From contig NZ_MAGO01000005.1 in NCBI RefSeq assembly GCF_001687335.1, positions 124,001 to 188,000 on the forward strand: a stretch of 64,000 bases of DNA, given 5' to 3'. The stretch is from Dissulfuribacter thermophilus. GTDB taxonomy: Bacteria; Desulfobacterota; Dissulfuribacteria; Dissulfuribacterales; Dissulfuribacteraceae. Below the pieces are notes generated by a model. That model saw only the letters and a list, made by a program, of their open reading frames with translations, was not told the DNA's origin and made no database searches. Shown piece after piece: positions 31,602-38,203 of this stretch (positions within the stretch are counted from its first letter, which is position 1; each line of letters begins with the position of its first letter). A program made the translations under genes and the position numbers.

Positions 31602-33323
31602 TTACTCCGCAGAGGTCATTTTACACGCACCGCAAAGAATACATCCTGAAAATTTACACCTCGGTGTCTCCTTCTGTTTAACGGCTTTCAGATATTCCGA
31701 TTTTAAATATTTTCGTTTCACCCTAGAACCTATGATCTCCCAGGAAAGCATATTTTCTTTATCTGGTATTCCAGTAAGATATTTATCGAAATCTCCACCT
31801 GTTTCCTTAACAGCTTTTTCAAGGTCAATGCCATTCTTACTGGCCAATGAAATCGCGTTGGCTAGCCTTCTGTCTCCCCTACTCAAAACTGCCTGCAACC
31901 GAGCTTCTCTAATAGAATCAAGTTGAATCTTCACATTTGAAATCTTAGATAATCCCTTTTTTAGAAGGGCACGTCTCCTTCTGAGATTCTCTGGATCTTC
32001 CTGTTTTTCCCACTGAAAGGGAGTAAATGGCTTTGGAACAAAAGTGCTAAAGGAGGCAGTGAGTCGCCCTAGTCTACCTCTAGATCTCCCATAGGTAGCC
32101 ATTATGTCTCGTACCTTTTTGATAAGACCTATAGTCTCTAGAATGTCATCATCATCTTCTTCGGGCAGTCCGAGCATAAAATACATCTTTAGATTCGGAA
32201 TTCCTGCCCACGACAGATATTCCGCAGCCCTTAGAATATCGTCTTCTCTCAGTCGCTTATTGATAGTCTTTCTAAGACGTTCAGAGCCAGCTTCTGCGGC
32301 AATGGTTGCTACTTTTGCACCTGATTTTCTCAAAAAGAGGGAAAACCTCTTTGTAATACGATCTGCCCGAAGCGAGGAAAAAGAAAGTCTCAGTCCCTTT
32401 CTCTCCACAAGATCAACGACTTCGGCAATAGTGTCATCCTCTGCAAATTCAAGCCCAATAAGACCGACAGATTCAACCTCACTACCAATTGTCTCAATAG
32501 TCCTTTTAACCGTATCGATTCTCCACTGTCTTGCAGGACGATATGCAAACCCCGCTGCACAGAAACGGCATCCCTGGCCACACCCACGAGTAACCTCGAT
32601 TAATTGCATGTTCCCAAAAATAGAATGGGGGGTAGTAATTACACTCTTTGGTGCTTCTTTTAATTCTTTAGTCCAAGAAGGTTCTATAGGGAAAGGAGCT
32701 CCAGCCTTTATGTCCCAATGAGAAACGCTTCTATCAGCCTCATATTTTGGCTCATATAACGACGGGACATAAAATGAATTAACCTCCTCAATCAGTCTTA
32801 AAAGTCGCCTCTGCCTGGGCTGATCAGTATCAAGCAGCGTGGGGATTGTATTACGGAATGCCTCTGCACAGGTTTCAAACTCTCCAATGAATATGGCGTC
32901 TATAAAGGGTGCTATGGGTTCAGGATTCAAACTTGGGCCAATTCCACCGGCCAACACCAGAGGAAAGGCATCTGATCTGTCTTTAGAAAAGCAAGGAATA
33001 CCCTGTTCTTCAAGGATTCTGGGGATTTTTAGATAATCCAGTTCAAAACTTATTGAAAAGCAGATTAGATCAAAATCCCTTAGTGGCCTCCCAGACTCTA
33101 TGGAGTTTGAGGCCCTGTCACCTTCCCAGAAGAGCCTCTCACATACAATTTCATCAAAGGAATTGAGGATGGCATATACCCTCTGAAATCCGAGGTTTGC
33201 CATCCCCACTTCATAGAAATTCGGAAAGACCAGGGCAACCGATGCCCGATCTTTCCATTTTTTTCTAATGGCCCCTGTCTCAGTCCTCTTCAGCTTCTTG
33301 TTCCATCTTTGTGAGGTCTTCAA
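31602..33323 (-). CDS. B12-binding-like radical SAM protein (TIGR03960-like)
   Basis: A 573-residue protein with an N-terminal cobalamin-binding-like Rossmann region (VALVFPNFYEVGMANLGFQ and VLAGGIGPSLNPEPIAPFIDAIFIGE, partially quoted). A radical SAM barrel follows, whose cluster motif is CGQGCRFC (CxxxCxxC) near residue 255. The C terminus ends with a cysteine group CKFSGCILCGACK that could hold an accessory Fe-S cluster. It fits the TIGR03960 group, often fused to or paired with DUF2344, which is absent here. The function is unknown and may be RNA- or cofactor-modifying. It overlaps the citrate synthase gene by 44 bases if the TTG start is used. Confidence 0.82.
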   Translation of the reverse strand: MKTSQRWNKKLKRTETGAIRKKWKDRASVALVFPNFYEVGMANLGFQRVYAILNSFDEIVCERLFWEGDRASNSIESGRPLRDFDLICFSISFELDYLKIPRILEEQGIPCFSKDRSDAFPLVLAGGIGPSLNPEPIAPFIDAIFIGEFETCAEAFRNTIPTLLDTDQPRQRRLLRLIEEVNSFYVPSLYEPKYEADRSVSHWDIKAGAPFPIEPSWTKELKEAPKSVITTPHSIFGNMQLIEVTRGCGQGCRFCAAGFAYRPARQWRIDTVKRTIETIGSEVESVGLIGLEFAEDDTIAEVVDLVERKGLRLSFSSLRADRITKRFSLFLRKSGAKVATIAAEAGSERLRKTINKRLREDDILRAAEYLSWAGIPNLKMYFMLGLPEEDDDDILETIGLIKKVRDIMATYGRSRGRLGRLTASFSTFVPKPFTPFQWEKQEDPENLRRRRALLKKGLSKISNVKIQLDSIREARLQAVLSRGDRRLANAISLASKNGIDLEKAVKETGGDFDKYLTGIPDKENMLSWEIIGSRVKRKYLKSEYLKAVKQKETPRCKFSGCILCGACKMTSAE

Positions 33324-35112
33324 ACTTGATGTCTACTCCAAGTACTCCAATTATTTCATCTTCATCATTTCTAATGGGACCAGAAACAGTGATACAAAGG
33401 GCACCAGTGATCTTTGAAGTATAAACATCAGTTACATGGATTTTTCCGTCTTTTATAGGGCCAATAAACCATGGCCTATTGGAAAAATCATCATCGAGCT
33501 TAAATGTGGCATACTTGGCCTTGTCTTCGATGTGAGTGATATTTTTTGTGATCTTTTTACCCTCAATATCAGTAACATAAAGGAATTGTATAAATGGATC
33601 TTCTTCGAGCACTTCCTTAAGGACGGGTTCAATCTTTTCTGGATCCATTGACCTGATTTCTTCCCGGTCAACAAGTTCCGCTACAATATGTGAAGCAAGT
33701 TCCCTTGCCTTCTGCTTAAACTTTTCAAATTCAGAGGTAAACAACTCCGGAAGATATCGCCTTGTTAGGGCCTCCATTTCACCTTTACTAATGGAAGTCA
33801 CCCTGCCGGCCTCATATTCCTTCATTATTTTCTTATAAATCTTCACAACGCCGGGATGGCGTTTATCAACCGCCTTATCACCTTCAAGATGGAGGTGTGA
33901 ATTAATCCAATGGGCTATACCTGCTGTGCCGGACTTATCTGAAATGACGACAGATATCGGCCTTCCAAGTATCTTCTTGGTATCAAAGATATTGTATATC
34001 TCTTCATTTTTGAGGAGGCCATCAACATGTATGCCTGCACTTGTAGCATTGAAGTCTGCTCCTACTAATGGATAATTCTTCGGTATGTGGACACCGAGTT
34101 CTTCTTCAAAGTAACGGGCGGCATCTGTAATAGCCAAGGTATCAATCCCGTCTTCTGTTCCCCTAAGTGCTATCCTCTCTATGAGAACTGCCTCAATTGG
34201 GGCATTTCCAGTACGTTCTCCAAATCCAAATAGCGTACCATTTATGGCCTCACACCCATAAAGCCATGCGGTAATTGCATTTACAAAGACCTTGTGAAAG
34301 TCATTATGTCCATGCCATTCCAGAAGTTCTCCTGGGACTCCCGCCTCTTCAATCATGGTCCTAACGAGTTTAGGCACACTTCTTGGAAGTGCTGCTCCAG
34401 GATATGGTACGCCATAGCCCATGGTATCACAGAGTCTGATCTTTATATCTATCCCGGACTCTTCCCGTAATTTCATCAACTCTATTGCAAAGGGCACGCA
34501 AAATCCATAGATGTCTGCCCTGGTAATATCTTCAAAATGACACCTTGGACGGATTCCAAGCTCAAGGGCTGCTTTAACGATTGCCAGGTAGGACTCCATG
34601 GCCTGGGCCCTGTCTTTCTTGAGTTTTAGGTAGATATGGTAGTCAGAAGCAGAGGTTAAGATCCCAGTCTCGGTGAGCCCCATCTCTTTGACCAATTTGA
34701 GGTCTTCAGCCTTTGCTCTGATCCAACCACTAATTTCAGGGTACTTATAGCCCCTTTCCCTGCAGCGTTCTACTGCCTCTTTATCCTTTTTGGTGTAAAG
34801 AAAGAATTCGGCCTGTCTTATTATGCCTTTCGGTCCACTTAATCTGTGAAGAAAATCAAAAATAGTTAAAATTTGATCTACTGAATATGGGGGTCTTGCC
34901 TGTTGACCATCCCTAAAAGTCGTATCGGTTATGAGCATATTTTTGCACGGGCTTGGGATCACATATTTATGATCGAAGTCTATACGAGGCACACTATCAT
35001 ATGGGAAAATAGTGCGCATGAGGTTTGGTTTTTCTGGATTTTCAAGACGAGGCTTCCAGAATTCTGTATGTTCATGATCCAGTAATCCCCTATTCTCATT
35101 CCATTTTGCCAT
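33280..35112 (-). CDS. Re-type citrate synthase with C-terminal Cache-like domain
   Basis: The N-terminal 450 residues are a homocitrate/isopropylmalate-synthase-fold acyltransferase matching what I recall of Re-citrate synthase of Clostridium kluyveri and Desulfovibrio: DTTFRDGQQARPPYSV (63-78), RQAEFFLYTKKDKEAV, RCHFEDITRADIYGF and the metal motif HGHND (267-271), with D63, H267 and H269 as likely metal ligands. It would form citrate from oxaloacetate and acetyl-CoA. Residues about 500-610 look like a Cache/PDC sensor domain: FLYVTDIEGK, NRPWF, a DVYTSKITGALCITVSGPI strand pair and DEIIGVLGVDI. The protein is about 150 residues longer than usual. No signal peptide or membrane helix exists, so the sensor-like domain would be cytoplasmic, perhaps allosteric. 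A strong AAAGGAG precedes the ATG. Confidence 0.85.
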   Translation of the reverse strand: MAKWNENRGLLDHEHTEFWKPRLENPEKPNLMRTIFPYDSVPRIDFDHKYVIPSPCKNMLITDTTFRDGQQARPPYSVDQILTIFDFLHRLSGPKGIIRQAEFFLYTKKDKEAVERCRERGYKYPEISGWIRAKAEDLKLVKEMGLTETGILTSASDYHIYLKLKKDRAQAMESYLAIVKAALELGIRPRCHFEDITRADIYGFCVPFAIELMKLREESGIDIKIRLCDTMGYGVPYPGAALPRSVPKLVRTMIEEAGVPGELLEWHGHNDFHKVFVNAITAWLYGCEAINGTLFGFGERTGNAPIEAVLIERIALRGTEDGIDTLAITDAARYFEEELGVHIPKNYPLVGADFNATSAGIHVDGLLKNEEIYNIFDTKKILGRPISVVISDKSGTAGIAHWINSHLHLEGDKAVDKRHPGVVKIYKKIMKEYEAGRVTSISKGEMEALTRRYLPELFTSEFEKFKQKARELASHIVAELVDREEIRSMDPEKIEPVLKEVLEEDPFIQFLYVTDIEGKKITKNITHIEDKAKYATFKLDDDFSNRPWFIGPIKDGKIHVTDVYTSKITGALCITVSGPIRNDEDEIIGVLGVDIKFEDLTKMEQEAEED

Positions 35113-35128
35113 GAGTCTTTCTCCTTTT

Positions 35129-36913
35129 TTATGCTTCCTTAATTATCCTAAGGTAAAGCTCGGCAAGTTGCTCCATGCTCACGTTTGATGGAGCACCAGT
35201 CATTAGACACTGTGCCTTCTGGGTTTTTGGGAACGCTATTACGTCTCTTATTGACTCCCTTCCTCCCATGAGCATAACAAGCCTATCCAAACCAAATGCA
35301 ATTCCCCCATGCGGTGGAGCGCCATATTCCAATGCCTCAAGCAGGAATCCAAATTTTTCTCTTGCCTCTTCTTCACCTATTGATAATGCCTTAAATAGTC
35401 TTTCTTGAAGTTCCTTTGTGTGAATACGTATACTGCCTCCTCCAATTTCCACACCATTTAATACCAAGTCATATGCACGGGAACGGACCTTCAATGGATC
35501 AGATTCTAAAAGATCCAGATCTTCTTCCTTTGGAGAGGTGAATGGATGGTGCATTGAGGTCAGCCTCCCCTCGTCTTCATCGTATTCAAGAAGAGGGAAG
35601 TCAGTAATCCATACAAACGAATACTGCCCATCTTTGATAAGACCTGCCATTGCGCCTAGTCTAAGTCGCACTTCGCTCAGGACCTTAAACACCACATCTC
35701 TTTGGTCAGCACCAAAGAAGAGGCAATCACCTGGTTCTGCCCCTGCCCTTTCAGCAATTTGAGCCTTTTCTCCATCGGAGAAAAACTTCTGTATTGGAGA
35801 CTGCCAAGATCCATCATCTTTTATCTTGACCCAGGCAAGCCCCTTTGCACCGAGATCAATTGCAAAATTTGTAAGATCATCAAGTTCCTTTCTGGAAAGC
35901 CCCGCCATGCCTTTGGCATTTATTACCTTAACGACCCCTCCAGATTCTGCTGCCTGTTTGAAGACTTTAAGTCCGCAACCCTTAGCAACATCTGTAATAT
36001 CAACGAATTCCATATTAAAACGTATGTCTGGCCTGTCTGTGCCATAGTGGTCCATGGCATAATCGTAGGTCATGCGTTTAAAAGGCGTCTTTAGCTCCAA
36101 TCCAAGACAATCTGAAAACAGGTGGGATATGAGCCCTTCCATAAGCCCCATAACGTCTTCTTCTTCGACAAACGACATCTCAAGATCAAGCTGTGTGAAC
36201 TCTGGTTGCCTATCTGCCCTTAGGTCTTCATCTCTGAAACACCTTGCAATCTGGTAATATCGCTCGATACCCCCTATCATGAGAATCTGCTTGTAGAGCT
36301 GTGGCGACTGGGGAAGTGCATAAAAATTTCCTGGATTCACGCGGCTTGGAACGAGATAATCCCTTGCACCCTCTGGCGTGCTCTTTGTAAGAATAGGTGT
36401 CTCAACCTCAATAAATCCTTTATTATTTAAAAAGCTCCGCATTTGCTGGCATACCTTATGCCTAAGCCTCAATCCCTCGAGCATCCATGGACGCCTCAAG
36501 TCCATATAGCGGTATTTCAGTCTCAAGTTTTCAGAAACAGCCCCCTCTTCATCCAGTGGAAATGGTGGTGTTTTTGATGTGTTCAAGATCCTCAGTTCAT
36601 TCACAGCCACTTCGATAAAGCCTGTCTTCAACTTTGGGTTTTCCATGCCTTCAGGGCGCCTTCTCACCCTTCCCTTAACAGCTATACAATACTCACTGCG
36701 GAGCCTCTGGGCCTTTTCATGAGATGGTTCATGTATCTGTGGATCGAACACCACCTGGGTTATGCCTTCCCTGTCTCTCAGATCAACAAATATTACGCCT
36801 CCATGGTCTCTCCGCCTGAGTACCCACCCCATGAGCACCACATCGTTTCCGATGTATGATTCGTTAAGCGTTCCACAGTCATGGGTACGTTTAAGTCCAT
36901 TTAGAGATTCCAT
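35129..36913 (-). CDS. aspS: aspartyl-tRNA synthetase
   Basis: A class II synthetase of 594 residues with the bacterial architecture: an N-terminal OB anticodon-binding domain ([19 protein letters not shown]), motif 2 ([18 protein letters not shown]), a GAD insertion domain in the middle, and motif 3 ([13 protein letters not shown]). Whether it is discriminating or also charges tRNA-Asn cannot be decided from motifs alone; gatCAB is not in the window. It abuts hisS with no gap, a common pairing. Confidence 0.97.
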
Positions 36914-38203
36914 TTATTTTGCCTCCTCCTCTTGAGCCTTTTTCTTTTCTTCCTCGTCAACCTTCTTAATGATCTCTTCAACTACGTTATCAAATGGGAT
37001 ACGGACCTGCTCATGGGTGAGCATATCTCTGAGGATAGCCTCTTCTTCATCGATTTCTTCTTCACCAATAATTATAGCATAGCGCGCATTCAGTTTGTCA
37101 GCGTTCCTTAACTGGGCCTTTAAGCTCTTTTTTCCGTAGACAGTATCACATTTTAGCCCGCTTTCTCTCAATCCCTTCATCCATTCAAGGGCGTACTCTC
37201 GACCGTCTTTTTCCAGCACAGCAAAAAAGCAATCTATGCCATGCTCATCCTCAAAATCTTTTATGAGCAATAGGGCCCTCTCCACACCGATGGCCATTCC
37301 CACCCCAGGGACCTTGGGACCACCTAGCTGTTCTACGAGACCATCATAACGGCCTCCAGCGGCCACTGTGTCCTGGGCTCCAAGGTGAGCAGCCTTAATT
37401 TCAAAGGTAGTCCTCTGGTAATAATCAAGCCCCCTTACGAGGTAAGGATTTATCACAAAAGGAATTTGAAGGGTCTCCAAGTTATCTAGGACCTGGCCAA
37501 GGTGTTCAGAACATTCAGGGCACCAATAATGCTTTATTACAGGTGCAAGGAGCAATGCCTTTTTACACGACTCTTTCTTACAATCAAAGACCCTTAAAGG
37601 GTTTGAACGCATTCTTCGCTTGCAGTCAGGGCAAAGCTCTTCAGAGTTGTTTTCAAGAAAGAGTACCAGATCTTTCCGATGACCTGGTCTGCACTTTGGA
37701 CACCCTAGAGAATTTATTTCAAGCCTGACGTCTTCTATGCCAAGGTCATTCAAAATGGTCCATGCCACCCAGATTACCTCGGTATCTGAAAGTGGATCAT
37801 CGCTGCCGATGACTTCGGCATTGATCTGGTGAAACTGGCGAAGCCGTCCTTTTTGAGGCCTTTCATATCTAAACATTGGCCCAATGGTATAGAGCTTTTG
37901 AACACTGGATCGGGCTTGCAGCTTATTTTCTATATATGCCCTGATTATCCCAGCAGTAGCCTCTGGACGAAGAGTAACAGAGTCTCCATTCCTATCTTCA
38001 AATGTATACATTTCTTTTTCTACGATATCGGTGAATTCCCCGATACCTCTCTGAAATACTTCTGTCTTTTCAAGTAAGGGGGTCCGGATTTCAGAAAAAC
38101 CAAAGTTTTCAAAATTGAACCGAGCCGTCTCTTCAATGTATTGCCAGACCTTTGTTTCAGGCGGCAATATATCCTTAAAGCCTCTAATAGCCTTACACGC
38201 CAA
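36914..38203 (-). CDS. hisS: histidyl-tRNA synthetase
   Basis: A class II synthetase of 429 residues with motif 1 around GFSEIRTPLLEKTEVFQRGIGE, motif 2 (MFRYERPQKGRLRQFHQINAEV, partially quoted), the HisA peptide LVRGLDYYQRTTFE and an AAGGRYDGLVEQLGG segment. A short charged tail (EEEKKKAQEEEAK) follows the anticodon-binding domain. The start is a TTG at 38203 with AAGGAG ten bases upstream. It is the first gene of the minus-strand operon hisS-aspS-citrate synthase-radical SAM-fapA. Confidence 0.97.
   Translation of the reverse strand: MACKAIRGFKDILPPETKVWQYIEETARFNFENFGFSEIRTPLLEKTEVFQRGIGEFTDIVEKEMYTFEDRNGDSVTLRPEATAGIIRAYIENKLQARSSVQKLYTIGPMFRYERPQKGRLRQFHQINAEVIGSDDPLSDTEVIWVAWTILNDLGIEDVRLEINSLGCPKCRPGHRKDLVLFLENNSEELCPDCKRRMRSNPLRVFDCKKESCKKALLLAPVIKHYWCPECSEHLGQVLDNLETLQIPFVINPYLVRGLDYYQRTTFEIKAAHLGAQDTVAAGGRYDGLVEQLGGPKVPGVGMAIGVERALLLIKDFEDEHGIDCFFAVLEKDGREYALEWMKGLRESGLKCDTVYGKKSLKAQLRNADKLNARYAIIIGEEEIDEEEAILRDMLTHEQVRIPFDNVVEEIIKKVDEEEKKKAQEEEAK

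Follow-up and report, generated by a model that had tools for sequence, protein, structure and literature searches.

A Cache domain at the C-terminus of a candidate Re-type citrate synthase in Dissulfuribacter thermophilus and other anaerobic bacteria

Domain organization of the synthase-Cache protein

We analyzed a window of 64,000 nucleotides from the genome of Dissulfuribacter thermophilus (contig NZ_MAGO01000005.1, positions 124,001 to 188,000) and focus here on a minus-strand open reading frame (ORF) of 610 residues that has an ATG start and an intact reading frame. It encodes a synthase of the Re-citrate-synthase type carrying a C-terminal Cache/PDC domain, and it lies directly downstream of two aminoacyl-tRNA synthetase genes (Table 1). 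A preliminary description of the locus had proposed a Re-citrate synthase about 150 residues longer than usual, the last 110 residues or so resembling a Cache domain. The synthase landmarks that it named, DTTFRDGQQARPPYSV (residues 63-78) and HGHND, are present in the protein, as are those of the tail, NRPWF (545-549), ALCITVSGP (571-579) and EIIGVLGVDI (586-595).

Table 1. Positions in the window of the synthase-Cache gene, its domains and motifs, and the genes upstream
Feature	Position	Strand	Evidence or remark
Re-citrate-synthase-type DRE-TIM synthase with C-terminal Cache/PDC domain, entire gene, 610 residues	33280..35112	-	ORF, Pfam, homologues
HMGL-like catalytic TIM barrel, residues 60-333	34114..34935	-	PF00682, E 1e-31; Foldseek of full-length model
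DTTFRDGQQ active-site motif, residues 63-71	34900..34926	-	D63, R67, D68, G69, Q70 and Q71 kept in tail-bearing and tail-less homologues
HGHND metal-binding motif, residues 267-271	34300..34314	-	kept in tail-bearing and tail-less classes
Helical region after barrel, residues 341-458	33739..34092	-	weak HCS_D2 match at 356-404; tail-less homologues stop just past this region
Linker helix joining synthase to Cache, residues 461-490	33643..33732	-	helices 461-481 and 484-487 in full-length model
Cache/PDC domain, residues 494-602	33307..33633	-	PF22673, E 5.8e-22; AlphaFold; Foldseek
R546-P-W548-F549, aligned with R126, W128 and Y129 of the PctA amino-acid pocket	33466..33477	-	R in 131/141, W in 141/141, F in 140/141
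Y564-T-S566, aligned with Y144 and D146 of PctA	33415..33423	-	Y/F in 139/141, S in 141/141
D594, aligned with amine-binding D173 of PctA	33331..33333	-	invariant, 141/141
aspS (aspartyl-tRNA synthetase), directly upstream	35129..36913	-	name read from translation
hisS (histidyl-tRNA synthetase), next upstream	36914..38203	-	name read from translation

The tail scores 78.7 bits in the Pfam family MCP-like_PDC_1 (PF22673), for which the cut-off is 27. Its dCache_1 score falls slightly below the Pfam cut-off, and no LeuA_dimer domain is found by Pfam in the protein. Relatives devoid of the tail stop near aligned residue 456-475, and the additional part does amount to about 150 residues, consisting of the helical linker (461-490) and the Cache domain (494-605). 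The linker is the most variable part of the protein in the homologue alignment, the N-terminus excepted.

The highest 19-residue Kyte-Doolittle mean is 0.98 with no hydrophobic membrane segment, which predicts a soluble protein that has no membrane anchor, in line with the earlier view of a Cache domain on a soluble enzyme. A periplasmic protein was considered and is ruled out by the same hydropathy profile. The extracytoplasmic location usual for Cache domains does not apply here, as the protein has no membrane segment and the partner domain is a CoA-dependent enzyme. According to a 2016 census, 78 % of Cache domains are confidently predicted to be extracytoplasmic, a location that is usual rather than defining (PMC4822843).

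The tail has a Cache/PDC fold

The AlphaFold model of the tail, built with 84 homologues, reaches a pLDDT of 86.7 and a pTM of 0.82 and displays a PDC sheet preceded by a long N-terminal helix. Foldseek comparison of this model with the PDB gives the sensor KinD as the best match (4jgp, E 2.9e-8, TM 0.67), with further matches to Tlp3, CitA (citrate-bound), DcuS, DctB (succinate-bound), Mlp24, CtaA, PctC and the cytosolic YkuI. The full-length model (pLDDT 89.8) retrieves homocitrate, isopropylmalate and citramalate synthases, the top match being 6ktq, an entry solved without its RAM domain.

Taken together, the curated profile match and the predicted structure establish that the C-terminal tail is a genuine Cache/PDC fold. 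Chance similarity is rejected by the strength of the PF22673 match, by the strongly conserved tail that 141 homologues share and by the PDC/Cache identity of the top PDB matches. A LeuA regulatory domain or a plain linker can likewise be dismissed, given the missing LeuA_dimer match and the Cache/PDC folds returned for the tail alone.

The fusion is common and old

We collected 141 homologues with the tail and examined 80 genome loci for context, from Desulfobacterota, Nitrospirota, Spirochaetota, Elusimicrobia, Lentisphaerae, Omnitrophota, Fibrobacteres and others. At these loci nearly all complete copies of the synthase have the tail. We then counted both forms by phylum, the phylum of each counted set being that of its anchoring record. 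Desulfobacterota have 140 genomes with the tail, 4 without and 1 unclear, and Nitrospirota 29, 0 and 2, respectively. In the family that includes a Syntrophaceae metagenome-assembled genome (MAG), 27 genomes encode the protein, 26 of them with the tail, none tail-less and 1 unclear. Spirochaetota are mixed (13 with the tail, 19 without, 1 unclear) and the set anchored by a Bacillota MAG is mostly tail-less (1 with, 43 without). A fusion private to the D. thermophilus genome is thus rejected, and so is a tail universal in the synthase family. The fusion predominates in several anaerobic phyla and is more widespread than the preliminary description supposed.

The tree of the synthases requires at least 5-6 switches between presence and absence of the tail, and at least 2 of the switches are forced by starred branches. 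A single clade of all tail-bearing enzymes is not rejected (p-AU 0.18), so that one fusion followed by losses and several separate events are both compatible with the tree. Distances between tails correlate with those between synthases (Mantel r 0.68, p 0.001), as expected if the tail stayed with its enzyme. The Cache domain diverges faster than the barrel, with a mean identity of 44 % compared to 62 %. No alignment column tells tail-bearing from tail-less enzymes.

Two Spirochaetota genomes, G742 (L153/L194) and G706 (L154/L193), have a tail-bearing and a tail-less copy each. The tail-bearing copies cluster with Desulfobacterota sequences, which suggests that they were acquired by transfer.

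The synthase is the only citrate-synthase candidate found in the genome

To identify the reaction of the synthase we looked at what else the genome encodes. There is no match to Si-citrate synthase (PF00285) in the 2.52 Mb, 99.97 % complete D. thermophilus genome, using a search that gave a match in 13 of 14 control genomes. Aconitase and NADP-isocitrate dehydrogenase are both encoded, each matching its own equivalog model. The other two HMGL proteins retrieved with the synthase as query are LeuA and CimA according to their equivalog models. The synthase itself falls far short of the cut-offs set for all curated homocitrate, citramalate and isopropylmalate synthase models, including LeuA, CimA, NifV and LysS. 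In a search for ATP-citrate lyase with PF16114, none of the control genomes gave a match. PF00285 also matches the C-terminal part of ATP-citrate lyase, and its absence from the genome argues against such an enzyme.

The synthase is therefore the only citrate-synthase candidate found in the genome. The lack of Si-citrate synthase despite the presence of aconitase and isocitrate dehydrogenase, with LeuA and CimA encoded separately, points by elimination to a citrate synthase of the Re type. The protein has the corresponding features, namely the HMGL/DRE-TIM barrel, the active-site Arg-Asp and the metal-binding HxH motifs. Re-citrate synthases have been reported in Firmicutes, Chloroflexota and Thermodesulfobacteriota, including Desulfovibrio vulgaris (PMC12016533), and those of the Clostridium kluyveri and Syntrophus aciditrophicus type are described in work that this paper cites (Li 2007; Kim 2013). 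Like them, the D. thermophilus enzyme is built on an HMGL barrel akin to homocitrate and isopropylmalate synthases, in an anaerobe without Si-citrate synthase. Unlike the tail-less Bacillota homologues, which end near residue 460, it adds a Cache domain.

The pocket partly resembles that of amino-acid sensors

Amino-acid sensors of the dCache_1AA group share a motif formed by Y121, R126, W128, Y129, Y144 and D173 of PctA (PMC10104139, PMC11245519). We mapped these positions to the tail by HMMER alignment to PctA and counted conservation over the 141 tails. Five of the six positions are kept in 128 tails, and W548, S566 and D594 are invariant. The position of Y121 is the one lost. Compared with random sets of positions drawn from the domain, the six motif positions vary less (p 0.004), and so do the seven PctA pocket positions with the lost one included (p 0.0005). 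The tail thus resembles dCache_1AA sensors such as PctA and Tlp3 in its PDC fold and in a pocket of R, W, an aromatic residue, Y and D, and differs from them in being a cytosolic, C-terminal, single PDC module on a metabolic enzyme. With one PDC module instead of two, the tail may work like a dCache_1AA sensor and yet is not counted as a member. KinD, an extracellular two-module histidine-kinase sensor solved with pyruvate, shares the Arg, the Ser and a YxSxITG stretch with the tail but has no D594 equivalent in the HMMER alignment. Judged from these alignments the pocket looks intermediate, with D594 favoring an amino acid and a 2-oxo acid still possible.

The closest relatives of the tail that we found belong to chemoreceptors. 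A search of 148 Desulfobacterota genomes with the tail alone (threshold E 1e-8) yielded only six non-synthase matches, one of them in genome G525, and no second copy of the tail in D. thermophilus. Five of the six (L270-L274), as well as two proteins found otherwise (L118 and L119), consist of the signalling domain of methyl-accepting chemotaxis proteins (MCP) followed by a C-terminal Cache domain with 30-37 % identity to the tail. Read from their sequences, five of these seven chemoreceptors appear to be soluble proteins, and the other two carry hydrophobic segments at the N-terminus. All seven retain the R-W-F/Y-Y-S-D set, here next to an MCP signalling domain and not an enzyme. It is conceivable, although we hold the idea only tentatively, that the synthase tails and the Cache domains of cytosolic chemoreceptors form one cytosolic lineage that detects an amino acid inside the cell. 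On the Re-citrate synthases of several anaerobic phyla this lineage would exert direct allosteric control over entry into the tricarboxylic acid cycle, and metabolism and taxis would read the same internal metabolite.

A proposed allosteric citrate synthase

We hypothesize, with a probability of about 60 %, that the protein is a Re-type citrate synthase whose cytosolic Cache domain acts as an allosteric sensor of a small metabolite, likely an amino acid. Built on the HMGL/isopropylmalate-synthase scaffold, the barrel would form citrate from acetyl-CoA and oxaloacetate. The ligand of the pocket formed by R546, W548, F549, Y564, S566 and D594 would be a small metabolite inside the cell. An alpha-amino acid is the most likely class, for example glutamate, in which the citrate-isocitrate-2-oxoglutarate branch ends, or aspartate, the amino counterpart of the substrate oxaloacetate; a 2-oxo acid would be the second choice. 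Binding would then adjust the activity of the barrel through the helical linker or through a Cache dimer. C-terminal regulatory domains occur within the same enzyme superfamily in LeuA and in RAM-domain homocitrate synthase, and it is by analogy with these that the Cache domain may regulate the enzyme. LeuA, which has the same barrel family and a C-terminal sensor in the same place, responds in this way to leucine with a sensor of an unrelated fold. The preliminary description had envisaged a carboxylate-sensing module that perhaps controls flux between the oxidative and reductive tricarboxylic acid (TCA) cycle. The position of the domain does fit an allosteric module; the pocket suits the amino-acid motif at least as well as a carboxylate, and acetate is not a leading candidate. 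Feedback on the glutamate-forming branch would be the more economical explanation.

Several observations weigh against our proposal. The assignment to Re-citrate synthase relies on distribution and elimination rather than on comparison with a verified sequence, and the reaction, its stereochemistry, the ligand and the allostery are all features that we infer. Catalytic residues are the same in the common tail-less homologues, so the tail must be dispensable for catalysis. The first aromatic of the amino-acid motif, at the position of PctA Y121, is not conserved in the tails, and the position of D146 is the invariant S566, a serine found in KinD and also in the cytosolic MCP tails, which renders the amino-acid specificity uncertain.

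One alternative retains the same device with a different ligand, a TCA-cycle carboxylate or 2-oxo acid such as citrate, 2-oxoglutarate, pyruvate or acetate. The pyruvate in the top Foldseek match, the alignment of S566 and R546 with the Ser and Arg of KinD, and the matches to citrate-bound CitA and succinate-bound DctB all speak for this variant. Nevertheless we consider it doubtful, since the invariant D594 occupies the amine-binding position and has no obvious use with a simple carboxylate, and the likeness of fold to CitA is not carried into the sequence.

Should the tail be a dimerization or stability module without any role in small-molecule signalling, the variable linker, the faster divergence of the Cache domain and the identical catalytic residues of tail-less enzymes would all be accounted for, and Cache/PDC domains often dimerize. 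Such a structural role is nonetheless unlikely, because the best-conserved tail residues largely coincide with the PctA pocket positions, which would be unexpected for R546 or D594 in a purely structural domain. Less probable still is that the enzyme catalyzes another Claisen condensation, yielding homocitrate, citramalate or a new 2-alkylmalate. Its best NCBIfam score does go to homocitrate synthase NifV, and tail-less relatives about 41 % identical are located on Deinococcus plasmids (NZ_CP031163.1 and NZ_CP097152.1), annotated only as pyruvate carboxyltransferase. The NifV score is, however, far under the cut-off (151 versus 463 bits), and the separate LeuA and CimA and the absence of any PF00285 protein beside aconitase and isocitrate dehydrogenase speak for the Re-citrate synthase instead.

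Genomic neighborhood

The genes hisS, aspS and the synthase gene are arranged head to tail (33280-38203, minus strand), separated by 0 and 16 bp. At 35 of the 80 loci an aspS homologue flanks the synthase gene; in every case it is located upstream in the same orientation, and in 28 of them the distance is within 300 bp. Homologues of hisS are found in the flanks of 25 loci. The pattern points to a hisS-aspS-synthase cluster in Desulfobacterota, and any bearing of the cluster on the ligand is speculation. Downstream lies an ORF (31602-33323, minus strand) whose translation resembles a radical SAM protein; with a TTG start, its first 44 bp would coincide with the 3' end of the synthase gene.

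Relation to known Cache proteins and significance

Most Cache families are principally extracellular, YkuI_C and Diacid_rec being principally intracellular, and signalling outputs are known for all but one family (PMC4822843). YkuI_C (2bas, 2w27) is comparable to the synthase tail as an intracellular C-terminal Cache domain on a non-receptor protein, with weak Pfam and Foldseek similarity (PMC4822843). Its partner is an EAL domain of c-di-GMP signalling, whereas the partner of the synthase tail is a central metabolic enzyme. In the literature that we searched, which lacks most subscription papers, we found no paper pairing a Cache domain with Re-citrate synthase, HMGL or pyruvate carboxyltransferase, and no study on the control of TCA-cycle entry in the sulfate reducers, syntrophs and Nitrospirota concerned. 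The fusion may well be visible in public domain databases, so that we regard it as unremarked in the literature searched rather than as unknown.

The domain is mainly known as an extracellular signalling sensor, and here it is placed on the probable citrate synthase of a large fraction of sulfate reducers, syntrophs and Nitrospirota. Its presence in hundreds of relatives suggests an unstudied way in which entry into the TCA cycle may be switched. Once known, the ligand of the synthase Cache domain may also reveal what the related cytosolic chemoreceptors sense.

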